Source: an uncultured Clostridia bacterium
GTDB lineage: Bacteria; Bacillota; Clostridia; Christensenellales; Pumilibacteraceae
Direction: 5' to 3'
Length of the DNA stretch: 64,000 nucleotides
Assembly (NCBI GenBank): GCA_947175335.1
Contig: CAMWMF010000007.1
Coordinates: forward strand, 23,853 to 87,852
The stretch's first letter is position 1, and each line of letters begins with the position of its first letter. The notes beneath the pieces were generated by a model. It had not been told where the DNA came from. It did no database searches and saw nothing but the letters and a program-made list of their open reading frames with translations. Shown one piece after another: positions 4,644-52,187 of this stretch. Made by a program: the position numbers and the translations under genes.

Positions 4644-4672
4644 TTGACGGAAAGGCGATAGTGTGGTAAAAT
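4644..4672 (+). promoter_or_regulatory. sigma-A-type promoter for rpe, abutting the start codon
   Basis: TTGACG (4644-4649), a 17-nt spacer and TAAAAT (4667-4672). A start site 7 nt downstream would fall on the ATG at 4679, so the transcript would have no leader. Confidence 0.7.
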
Positions 4673-4678
4673 ATGCCT

Positions 4679-5332
4679 ATGAGCAAAACCATTATCGCAC
4701 CGTCAATACTCAGCGCCAACTTTGCCGATATGGGCGGCGAAGTAAAAAACTTGTCCGCAATAGGCGCCGATTGGGTTCATTTGGACGTAATGGACGGCAT
4801 ATTCGTGCCAAACCTTACGTTCGGGTTCAAAATGATAAAGGATATCCGTCCGTTGTCAAAGCTGTTTTTCGACGCGCATCTGATGATAGCGCAGCCTAAA
4901 CGGTATGTAAAGCGGTTTGTGGAATCGGGCGCCGATCTTGTATCTTTCCATTACGAGGCGGAGGAGGATATAGACGGCACTCTGGATATTATTAAGAATG
5001 CCGGCTGTAAATGCGGACTGGCCATCAATCCTGACACCGACGTAAACGTGATTAAGCCGTATCTCGGCAAGCTCGATTTGATTTTGATTATGACCGTGTT
5101 CCCGGGGTTCGGCGGACAAAAGTTTATAGACGGCTCGTTGGAGCGGATAGCAACGGCAAAGGCGTTGCGGGACGAATACGCGCCGCAAGCGCTTGTGGAG
5201 ATTGACGGCGGCGTAAACGTCGCTAACGCTCAAAGTATCATCAAAGCCGGGGCGGACGTGTTGGTGGCGGGTAATGCGGTGTTTGGCGCCGCGGATAGGG
5301 CAGTTGCGGTAAAACAACTTCGCTGTGATTAA
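4679..5332 (+). CDS. rpe: Ribulose-phosphate 3-epimerase
   Basis: Interconverts ribulose-5-phosphate and xylulose-5-phosphate in the non-oxidative pentose phosphate pathway. This is a TIM barrel of normal length (about 217 residues). Visible motifs are APSILSANF, the metal-binding HLDVMDG and FDAHLM, the phosphate-loop PGFGGQKF, and the catalytic-Asp strand VEIDGG. The usual TVNPGFGGQ or TVEPGFGGQ reads TVFPGFGGQ here. Two in-frame ATGs exist, 4673 and 4679. The second gives the family-like N-terminus MSKTIIAPSIL and coincides with the predicted transcription start. No Shine-Dalgarno precedes either. As in Bacillus, spoVM and rpmB come next. Confidence 0.96.
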   Translation: MSKTIIAPSILSANFADMGGEVKNLSAIGADWVHLDVMDGIFVPNLTFGFKMIKDIRPLSKLFFDAHLMIAQPKRYVKRFVESGADLVSFHYEAEEDIDGTLDIIKNAGCKCGLAINPDTDVNVIKPYLGKLDLILIMTVFPGFGGQKFIDGSLERIATAKALRDEYAPQALVEIDGGVNVANAQSIIKAGADVLVAGNAVFGAADRAVAVKQLRCD

Positions 5333-12374: not shown

Positions 12375-12499
12375 GCTAAGTAGATTTTATCTCACCGTTC
12401 GGGTCTACTCGGAACGGTCAAACAATCAAAATAGTTGTTTTTGAGTGTGAGTTAATGTCTATTTAACTCGCAATTTTTATTTTTAGGAGGATACCGACT
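12375..12499 (+). promoter_or_regulatory. Structured infC leader with intrinsic terminator (L20-leader-like)
   Basis: The leader of about 125 nt holds hairpin 1, ACCGTTC/GAACGGT (12394-12400 / 12412-12418). Its loop contains TCTACT (12404-12409), complementary to AGTAGA (12379-12384), which allows a pseudoknot. A small AACAA/TTGTT hairpin follows. Then comes a 10-bp stem, TGTGAGTTAA/TTAACTCGCA (12446-12455 / 12463-12472), followed by ATTTTTATTTTT, an intrinsic terminator just before the AGGAGG Shine-Dalgarno. In Firmicutes infC-rpmI-rplT is controlled by L20 through leader attenuation, so this is a plausible L20 leader. I cannot align it to the Rfam model here. Confidence 0.7.
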
Positions 12500-13018
12500 A
12501 TTATTAAGGAGCTTGTTATCAACGAAGGGATTGAAGACAATCTCGAAGTTAGGGTCAAGGATGACGCGGGTGCTATGTTAGGGATTATGCCCGCCGCAAA
12601 AGCCAAGGTTTTGGCGGACGAACGTAGACTCGATCTTGTTATGATTACGCCCAACGCGCAACCGCCGGTTTGCCAAATTATGGACTACGGCAAATACCGT
12701 TTCGATATGGCAAAAAAGGCTAAGGACGCGCAAAAGAATCAAAAAAAGATGGACGTAAAAGAAATCCGTTTGTCCATAACTATTGACGTAGGTGACGTAA
12801 ACACCAAAACCAAGCAAGCAAGAAAATTCCTTGCGGAAGGTGCCAAAGTCAAGGTTTCCATCCGCATGCGCGGTCGTCAAATGGCGCGCCCGCAAATGGG
12901 AGTCGATATCATGAACTCGTTTTTCGAAACCGTTAAGGACGTTGCGATGATAGATCGCAAGCCGGCGGTGGACGGTAGAAGCATCATTATGATACTTGCA
13001 CCTATCAACAGTAAATAA
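12500..13018 (+). CDS. infC: Translation initiation factor IF-3 with ATT start
   Basis: IF-3 binds the 30S subunit and checks start-codon selection. The ORF track begins at ATG 12575, but the IF-3 N-domain clearly starts earlier. In the same frame, ATT 12500 opens a reading containing [18 protein letters not shown], the usual IF-3 N-terminal pattern (INExI...VRVI). AGGAGG (12485-12490) stands nine bases before it. AUU starts are a known autoregulatory feature of infC. A second ATT follows at 12503. Later motifs are [25 protein letters not shown] and the C-domain [13 protein letters not shown]. Length is 172 residues, normal. rpmI and rplT follow. Confidence 0.95.
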
Positions 13019-20617: not shown

Positions 20618-20646
20618 TTGATTTTTTGACTGAAAAGGTTTAAAAT
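20618..20646 (+). promoter_or_regulatory. sigma-A-type promoter of rluB inside an inverted repeat
   Basis: TTGATT (20618-20623), 17-nt spacer, TAAAAT (20641-20646); ATG begins six bases later. The elements lie in the arms of a perfect 9-bp inverted repeat, CTTGATTTT (20617-20625) / AAAATCAAG (20642-20650). Confidence 0.65.
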
Positions 20647-20652
20647 CAAGTT

Positions 20653-21357
20653 ATGCGTATCAACAAGTATCTTAGCGGCTGCGGATTAGACAGCCGCCGC
20701 AAATGCGAAAAACTGGTAACCGACGGCAGAGTTAAGGTAAACGGCAAGACGGTTACCGACCTTGCTACCGACGTCAAGGACGGCGATTACGTTGAGGTAG
20801 ACGGCAAAGCCGTCAATCTATCCGAGCGCAAGGTTTACATAATGCTAAATAAGCCCAAGGGCTGTGTGTGCACAGCCAGCGACGAAAAAGGTCGCAAAAC
20901 CGTTCTCGATTTTGTTAAAATCAAGGAGCGGGTTTTTCCCGTGGGCAGGCTGGACTACGACACAGAGGGACTACTTTTGCTCACTAACGATGGAGAATTG
21001 GCATATACGATAACACATCCCAAAAACATGGTGCAAAAGGTGTACAGCGTGCGTGTAGAGGGCGAGCCGTCTGATATGGAATTGAAGCGGTTGCGCAGTG
21101 GTGTCGAATACAACGGAGTTAAGTATGCGCCTGCGCGTGTAACTGTTGTGGAAAAGGACGAAAAGCAGACTAAGCTGGAAATTACTGTAATCGAAGGCAA
21201 AAATCACGAAATCAAAAACATGATTGAGTCGCTCGGACGGCGCGTGTTGTTTTTGAAGCGCACGGAAATTGCAGGCATACGCCTCGGCGGGCTGTCGCGC
21301 GGTGAGTGGCGGTATTTGAACTCGCGCGAGGAAGCACACTTAAAATCACTCAAATAG
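20653..21357 (+). CDS. rluB: Ribosomal large-subunit pseudouridine synthase (RluB/RsuA family)
   Basis: A 234-residue pseudouridine synthase. The N-terminal S4 domain (about 1-60) reads RINKYLSGCGLDSRRKCEKLV. The catalytic segment GRLDYDTEGLLLLTNDG carries the essential Asp. The usual EGKNRQIRRM motif is EGKNHEIKNM here, a mild variation. The probable target is 23S U2605, but RsuA/RluF-type specificity cannot be told from sequence. The scpB-ytfI-ytfJ-dacF-rluB order is a common Firmicutes one. No Shine-Dalgarno is visible; the promoter ends six bases before the ATG. Confidence 0.92.
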   Translation: MRINKYLSGCGLDSRRKCEKLVTDGRVKVNGKTVTDLATDVKDGDYVEVDGKAVNLSERKVYIMLNKPKGCVCTASDEKGRKTVLDFVKIKERVFPVGRLDYDTEGLLLLTNDGELAYTITHPKNMVQKVYSVRVEGEPSDMELKRLRSGVEYNGVKYAPARVTVVEKDEKQTKLEITVIEGKNHEIKNMIESLGRRVLFLKRTEIAGIRLGGLSRGEWRYLNSREEAHLKSLK

Positions 21358-35405: not shown

Positions 35406-35891
35406 TTACAGCAAATTTACAAATGCGTTAGAGAGGTGAATTATAAAGAATAATCCGGCAGTGCCGACAAGAAAATAGTTTTTGCGCCACAGTCCGATAA
35501 ACAAGTAGTACAGCGGGGGAAGTGCGAATATAAAGATTATCATAACTGCCACCGTTTGTATGCCGCAAAAGTACAGTATCCAACCGACAAAGTTAAGTGC
35601 GATTACGCCCGCCGCGACCGAAAAGAAAGCGATTTCACTTTTGGTTTTTATATTAAATAATTTATTATCGCCGTGAACGATTAAGATCATTACCGCAACG
35701 CACAGTATGCCGAATATTTTTTCGCATACGTCCAAGAATACCGAGTTTGTCGGCATGTTCATAATCGGGTTTAATTGCAAGGGAATCAACGGCATAATCA
35801 TATACGGTAGCTCTTGTATCGCAAACAAGACTAAACCAATCAGCCAAAGCCCCAAGTATTGATTTTTGATTATTTTAACCCACTTGAACAT
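35406..35891 (-). CDS. Hypothetical integral membrane protein
   Basis: A 161-residue protein with about five hydrophobic segments, a basic N-terminus (MFKWVKIIKNQYLG) and little outside the membrane. I do not recognise the family. Its promoter is a near-consensus TTGACT-N17-TATAAT, with the ATG only six bases after the -10 and no Shine-Dalgarno. It is therefore the clearest leaderless candidate in the window. It is convergent with purB and divergent from the lipoprotein gene. Confidence 0.75.
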   Translation of the reverse strand: MFKWVKIIKNQYLGLWLIGLVLFAIQELPYMIMPLIPLQLNPIMNMPTNSVFLDVCEKIFGILCVAVMILIVHGDNKLFNIKTKSEIAFFSVAAGVIALNFVGWILYFCGIQTVAVMIIFIFALPPLYYLFIGLWRKNYFLVGTAGLFFIIHLSNAFVNLL

Positions 35892-35897
35892 AGTAAA

Positions 35898-35926
35898 ATT
35901 ATATCACAAATTTATCTATAAGTCAA
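35898..35926 (-). promoter_or_regulatory. Near-consensus sigma-A promoter abutting a start codon
   Basis: Minus strand TTGACT (plus 35921-35926), 17-nt spacer, TATAAT (plus 35898-35903), then TTTACT and ATG at 35891. Confidence 0.85.
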
Positions 35927-50858: not shown

Positions 50859-50887
50859 TGTACATTTTGTGCGGTTTAGTGTATAAT
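50859..50887 (+). promoter_or_regulatory. Candidate promoter of miaB abutting the start
   Basis: TGTACA (50859-50864, four of six), 17-nt spacer, TATAAT (50882-50887). ATGs at 50889 and 50895; the second is seven bases after the -10. Confidence 0.6.
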
Positions 50888-50894
50888 TATGTCG

Positions 50895-52187
50895 ATGAAT
50901 AATTATTTTATCTACACATACGGTTGTCAAATGAACGTCCATGAATCGGAAAAGCTCGCCGGCATATTGCAGTCGCGCGGGTATTTGCCGTGTCAAAGCG
51001 TTGAGGAAGCGGACGTAATAGTGCTTAACACGTGTTGCGTGCGCGAAACAGCCGAAACCAAGGTGTACGGACATTTAGGTAGGATTAAGAGCCAAAAGAA
51101 ACAGGGTGCTATTATAGCTGTTTGCGGATGTATGACGCAACAGCCAAATGCGGCGGAAAAGCTGGTCAAGCGTTGCCCGTTTGTAAATATAGTCATAGGC
51201 ACGTTCAACCAGCCTCGATTGGGCGATTACTTGGATAGATTTTTTAAAACAGGCACGCGCATTATAGAGGTATGGGCGTCCGAAAAGGACGGCGATTGTT
51301 CGGAAAGCAATATGCCTGTGCGCTCGTCGGGAATAAACGCATGGGTAAACATTATGTACGGTTGCAACAACTTTTGCACGTACTGCATTGTGCCATATGT
51401 GCGTGGCAGGGAGCGCTGCCGCCCGATAGACGATATCGTAGCCGACGTCGACCGTTTGTTGAGCGAAGGTTACAAGCAAATAACGCTGCTTGGCCAAAAT
51501 GTAAATTCTTACAGGTATGCAGATAAAACATTTACCGATTTGTTAAAGGAACTGGAAAGCGACAAAAAATACAGACTTAAATTCATGACGTCGCATCCCA
51601 AGGATATTTCGCCCGAGCTTGCTCAAATAATCAGTAATTCCAAGGTTCTCAGCCACAGCTTGCACTTGCCCGTGCAGGCAGGCAGCGACCGCATATTGCA
51701 GGCTATGAATAGGCATTATACGCGCGACGAGTATCTTTCCAAGATTTCGGCGTTTCGCTCGCTTATTCCCGATATAGGACTTAGCTCGGACGTTATGGTC
51801 GGATTCCCTACGGAAACGGAGGAAGACTTTTTGCAAACCTTGGATTTGGTGGAGCGCGTCAAGTACAACAATTTATTTATGTTCATTTATTCTCAGCGCA
51901 GCGGTACTCCCGCAGACACTATGCCTCAGCTCGATTACGCCACAAAACAAAAGCGAATAGACAGGCTTATAAAATTCCAGTTCGAAATATCAAAGCAGCT
52001 CGCATTAGATGCGGTGGGGCATACTGCGGAGGTACTAGTGTCCGATAAAGACGGCAACAAGTGCTACGGTAAGTCTGAAACCGATGCGGCAATCACGTTC
52101 CAAAGCGACAGCGCGCAAATAGGCGATTTTGTACGCGTAAAAATCACATCCGCAAAAAATGCCAATTTAACGGGCGAGGTGATCTAA
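50895..52187 (+). CDS. miaB: tRNA-2-methylthio-N6-dimethylallyladenosine synthase MiaB
   Basis: A methylthiotransferase of about 430 residues acting on A37 after MiaA. UPF0004 domain cysteines are in TYGCQMNVHES, LNTCCVRE and VCGCMTQ. The radical SAM motif is YGCNNFCTYCIVPYVRGRE. A TRAM domain ends the protein. ATG 50889 is two codons upstream, but it lies too close to the -10 to be on the transcript if the promoter is right. miaB, mutS, mutL and miaA form one tight run. Confidence 0.96.
   Translation: MNNYFIYTYGCQMNVHESEKLAGILQSRGYLPCQSVEEADVIVLNTCCVRETAETKVYGHLGRIKSQKKQGAIIAVCGCMTQQPNAAEKLVKRCPFVNIVIGTFNQPRLGDYLDRFFKTGTRIIEVWASEKDGDCSESNMPVRSSGINAWVNIMYGCNNFCTYCIVPYVRGRERCRPIDDIVADVDRLLSEGYKQITLLGQNVNSYRYADKTFTDLLKELESDKKYRLKFMTSHPKDISPELAQIISNSKVLSHSLHLPVQAGSDRILQAMNRHYTRDEYLSKISAFRSLIPDIGLSSDVMVGFPTETEEDFLQTLDLVERVKYNNLFMFIYSQRSGTPADTMPQLDYATKQKRIDRLIKFQFEISKQLALDAVGHTAEVLVSDKDGNKCYGKSETDAAITFQSDSAQIGDFVRVKITSAKNANLTGEVI

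Follow-up and report, generated by a model that had tools for sequence, protein, structure and literature searches.

A predicted set of leaderless genes with housekeeping promoters six bases before the ATG in uncultured Clostridia

Can the A of a start codon also be the first nucleotide of the transcript? The question is raised by a locus in the 64,000-nucleotide stretch of DNA analysed here (the window), which comes from an uncultured Clostridia bacterium and whose minus strand, at 35926-35889, reads directly TTGACT-N17-TATAAT-TTTACT-ATG. If this -10 box occupies -12 to -7, as in sigma70 promoters, +1 is expected to fall on the A of the ATG. No Shine-Dalgarno (SD) core of the form AGGA, GGAG or GAGG is found in the 20 bases upstream of the ATG. 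A sequence-only reading had described this SD-less arrangement, and the letters are as it gave them. We put at about 0.88 the probability that true leaderless mRNAs are made here from a housekeeping promoter, and that the gene is one of a set, ~3% of genes, that includes rpe, rluB and miaB. The features concerned are collected in Table 1; throughout, the gap is the number of bases between the -10 box and the start codon.

Table 1. Promoter elements and predicted leaderless reading frames at four loci of the window
Feature	Position	Strand	Basis or remark
P0001 -35 element TTGACT	35921..35926	-	sequence; TTG-type -35 at N17 also in homologous loci L009, L010, L011 and L013
P0001 -10 element TATAAT	35898..35903	-	sequence; TATAAT, TATGCT or TATACT in homologs
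P0001 6-nt discriminator TTTACT	35892..35897	-	precedes the predicted +1 (A of the start codon, 35891)
P0001 start codon ATG	35891-35889	-	
P0001 ORF, predicted leaderless	35406..35891	-	161 codons (aa), several hydrophobic segments
rpe -35 element TTGACG	4644..4649	+	sequence, footprint
rpe -10 element TAAAAT	4667..4672	+	sequence, footprint
rpe (ribulose-phosphate 3-epimerase), predicted leaderless	4679..5332	+	Pfam PF00834
rluB -35 element TTGATT	20618..20623	+	sequence, footprint
rluB -10 element TAAAAT	20641..20646	+	sequence, footprint
rluB-like pseudouridine synthase, predicted leaderless	20653..21357	+	Pfam PF00849 and S4
miaB -35 element TGTACA	50859..50864	+	footprint
miaB -10 element TATAAT	50882..50887	+	TGTACA-N17-TATAAT (small variants allowed) in 18/19 loci of the genus
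miaB, predicted leader absent or 0-1 nt (gap 7)	50895..52187	+	NCBIfam TIGR01574

The reading frame behind this promoter, P0001, has no match in Pfam or NCBIfam, and its Met1 is conserved in the alignment of homologs. Among the nine homologous loci, five carry both a -35 and a -10 element at gap 6; the discriminator bases differ between them and end in CT, and the DNA further upstream of these promoters differs as well. No clear promoter at gap 6 was found in the distant homologs L012, L014 and L015, and a further homolog, L016, has an SD-like GAGGA. The hydrophobic 161-aa protein is present in 5/20 genomes of the genus, in upstream contexts that vary, and the promoter accompanies the gene in most of them. 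The divergent neighbour of P0001 (36038-37201, plus strand) encodes a protein of 387 aa that likewise lacks a Pfam or NCBIfam match, and is preceded by a clear SD (aaggag).

The same geometry had been claimed for rpe and rluB, and nearly the same for miaB. At rpe this holds once 4679 is taken as the start in place of 4673: the ATG at 4673 falls in the discriminator, and the locus then reads TTGACG-N17-TAAAAT-N6-ATG. The promoter, TTGAC(G/T/C)-N17/18-TA(A/C/G)AAT (once TAAACT), is found in almost every one of the genus's 20 genomes, with a gap of exactly 6 in 16 of the 20 species, 7 in two and 9 in one; the remaining one, G017, is a fragmented assembly and has no ATG at this position. The six discriminator bases are variable (ATGCCT, ATAGCC, GTAGCC, TATGAT, GCTTAT, GTTTTC and others), and since the gap stays constant while its bases change, it is the length that is kept and not the sequence. 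In other genera of the family, rpe is preceded by an SD in most cases. At rluB, which reads TTGATT-N17-TAAAAT-N6-ATG, the eight genomes closest to this one all have a gap of 6, and the gap is 16-29 in the remaining ten of the genus, the TTGATT -35 element being mostly kept; judged from these sequences, rluB is a switch between a predicted leaderless and a leadered state at one gene within a genus.

At miaB the arrangement is TGTACA-N17-TATAAT-N7-ATG, with the start taken as 50895 rather than 50889. An in-frame ATG mostly lies 5-8 bases past the -10 box in the loci of the genus, the one concerned in this genome and in those closest to it being the second ATG, at gap 7. In miaB genes across the order, few bases often separate the -10 box from the start, and a minimal SD is sometimes found between the two. 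At all four loci, P0001, rpe, rluB and miaB, the N17 spacing between -35 and -10 lies in the sigmaA/sigma70-type range (16-18). The in-frame ATGs at rpe 4673 and miaB 50889 appear as decoys, each inside the discriminator and six bases ahead of the probable start codon. Upstream of miaB in other genera (L138, L140, L141, L144, L148 and L151), TATAAT is followed closely by GGAGG and ATG; to judge by their sequence, such leaders, just long enough for an SD, are perhaps intermediate between the leaderless and leadered states. In two further relatives, L153 and L159 of genus g7, miaB apparently starts at a GTG that follows TATAAT at gap 7; such a GTG start may be leaderless.

The abundance of this spacing was assessed across the assembly (1.96 Mb, 52 contigs). 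Pattern counts covered the whole assembly, while gap histograms and gene-based tests used a sample of 40 stretches of 20 kb plus the window (864 kb, ~44%); other spacings served as the control, so that composition and promoter content were held constant. Within the window, TATAAT-N6-ATG occurs without mismatch only at P0001. The genome-wide count of this pattern, suggested by the sequence-only reading, revealed a clear excess (54 vs 30 per other gap), and the fuller pattern TTG-N19-21-TATAAT-N5-TATG, with TTG at -35 and T at -1, occurred 29 times vs 2.7 per gap. In the 864 kb, TTG-N19-21-TATAAT promoters had an ATG at gap 6 in 15 cases; the mean over gaps 1-5 and 9-25 was 3.3 per gap (p=2e-6). 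The histogram has another, wider rise at gaps 27-35, which corresponds to the ordinary leadered class.

These counts also bear on what else the arrangement could be. It is quite unlikely that the promoters are real and are followed by an ultra-short SD-less leader of 1-5 nt, or by several starts around the ATG. Gaps of 7-9 in some miaB orthologs would agree with this, as would the usual variability of transcription start choice, which commonly shifts by 1-2 nt; the peak at 6, however, is narrow, with counts at 5 and 7 close to background, and a T at -1 (14/15 gap-6 promoters vs 28/72 at control gaps) together with A at +1 fits initiation on the A itself. Far less probable is that an ATG at +1 reflects only the preference of the polymerase for a TATG initiator, with the real start codon downstream. 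Transcription starts do generally favour T at -1 and A at +1, but an ORF of at least 60 codons is opened by the ATG in 11/15 cases at gap 6 vs 23/72 at control gaps, the proteins align with their homologs from Met1, and no SD-preceded internal start was seen inside P0001; given the ORF excess and the Met1 alignment, we rejected an initiator-only origin. Chance, by which T/A-rich intergenic DNA would place TATAAT before ATG at any distance and striking cases be picked out, was rejected as practically negligible on the spacing control and the footprints, since the excess is confined genome-wide to one spacing and gap 6 is conserved between species, even though in the window alone TATAAT-N6-ATG with at most one mismatch occurs 26 times vs 23.8 expected, a scale at which the pattern test has no power.

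The leaderless reading was further examined on 670 genes called in the sample by a simple caller, using a codon model blind to upstream signals. Of the ATG genes lacking an SD core, nine had TATAAT at gap 6 and 0-3 had it at any other gap, whereas among SD genes it stood at gap 6 zero times. With nearby in-frame ATGs allowed as gene starts and a promoter score of at least 10 as the cut-off, 20 genes had their promoter at gap 6, while gaps 10-26 averaged 2.35 (p=1e-12); AGGA, GGAG and GAGG were absent from all 24 listed gap-6 promoter genes. The leaderless share, an estimate from the excess over control, is thus ~20/670, or ~3% of genes, which would amount to roughly 45 genome-wide if the sample is representative. 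The set of leaderless genes predicted by the sequence-only reading hence draws support from the spacing excess, the T at -1, the missing SD and the cross-species conservation of gap 6. Its contrast with most other genes, said to have strong SD sites, stands only roughly: a 4-base SD core precedes 28/61 called genes in the window and 314/551 ATG genes in the sample. GTG or TTG at gap 6 occurred 4 times vs ~1 at other gaps, too few for a claim of non-ATG leaderless starts.

A non-ATG start of another kind was observed in infC (translation initiation factor IF3; window 12487-13018, plus strand), whose N-terminus lacks ATG, GTG and TTG. A strong AGGAGG is followed there by in-frame ATT ATT AAG GAG, which is consistent with a start at ATT. 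An ATT start is known for infC of other bacteria.

By their Pfam matches the gap-6 genes form a mixed housekeeping list with no single pathway. Among the ~24 are miaB, rluB, a D-Tyr-tRNA deacylase, an NFACT/RqcH-like protein and a Glu-tRNA-synthetase-like protein. It may be asked whether, in some families of the order, leaderless genes are kept as a regulatory class and do not simply result from where promoters happen to lie, with a weighting, in this small sample, to genes of RNA modification and translation quality, which could then be switched jointly by the state of the ribosome or of initiation factors; we regard this as doubtful.

These genes would be expressed from housekeeping promoters of the sigmaA/sigma70 type, with six bases separating the -10 box from the ATG. 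As predicted from the sequence, the first base transcribed by RNA polymerase would be the A of this ATG, giving a leaderless mRNA, the exact +1 and the sigma factor being those expected from established knowledge. The 70S ribosome (or the 30S subunit with fMet-tRNA and IF2) would then bind the 5'-terminal AUG directly, without SD pairing, as inferred from other bacteria. Direct recognition of the 5'-terminal AUG of leaderless mRNA by the 70S ribosome has been described (review PMC9031893).

The phyletic breadth of the signal was measured as the count of TTG-N19-21-TATAAT-N5-TATG relative to the same pattern at gaps 10-19. Seven well-sampled families of the order (f1, f4, f97, f89, f104, f7 and f2) reached 5-9 times the control, while families f6, f94, f103 and f3 of the same order gave 0.8-1.5 times and a set of 69 genomes from the rest of the class 1.26 times. 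The gap-6 signal is therefore pronounced in some families of this order, and in other members of the class it stays close to background.

Leaderless genes as such are well known. In the Firmicutes, TA-led genes have been reported in 56/209 genomes, at a mean of 4.2% and chiefly in Lactobacillales and Mycoplasma (Zheng et al. 2011, PMC3160421). According to the accessible part of that survey, TA-led genes resemble those described here in lacking an SD, in their TANNNT box ~10-12 bases before the start and in their share (4.2% vs ~3% here); that part names no Clostridia, to which the present genes belong, and, unlike the TA-led genes it describes, the present ones join a clear TTGACA-type -35 at N17 to the -10 box. 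The -10 motif adjacent to ORFs in Deinococcus-Thermus (PMC12340547) shares with our genes the strict short spacing, the leaderless mRNA (predicted here) and the wrong start annotations, but it concerns about a third of genes and can act without a -35, compared with ~3% and a usual -35 here.

Transcription starts have also been mapped within the class. Fifteen possible leaderless genes were listed in C. difficile (PMC7438776), 2-3% were leaderless in solventogenic clostridia (PMC9045289), and in C. phytofermentans 4% of transcription start sites (TSSs) were leaderless, with the ribosome binding site (RBS) retained and most such genes having an upstream TSS too (PMC5171806). Like the genes considered here, these mapped cases (PMC7438776, PMC5171806, PMC9045289) lie in the Clostridia, and some of their TSSs coincide with the start codon, as is predicted here; the genes considered here differ in lacking an RBS and in a spacing conserved between species. 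Because leaderless TSSs in C. phytofermentans fall mostly in genes with an upstream TSS and an RBS (PMC5171806), we keep a similar arrangement in view: P0001-type genes may have a further promoter upstream that gives a leadered transcript as well. We found no description of leaderless genes in this clade in the open-access literature, and their systematic use there appears to be undescribed. The type of gene is familiar and its setting new, a group in which leaderless genes were thought rare.

These results have a direct bearing on annotation, for start codons are misplaced if the position of the -10 box is ignored, as the decoy ATGs of rpe and miaB in the window illustrate. Switches between leaderless and leadered states among close species, within the genus for rluB and between genera for rpe, provide material for studies of leader gain and loss. 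On the predicted leaderless reading, a group of uncultured gut Clostridia would be added to the bacteria in which a minority of genes is regularly expressed from leaderless mRNAs, alongside SD initiation.
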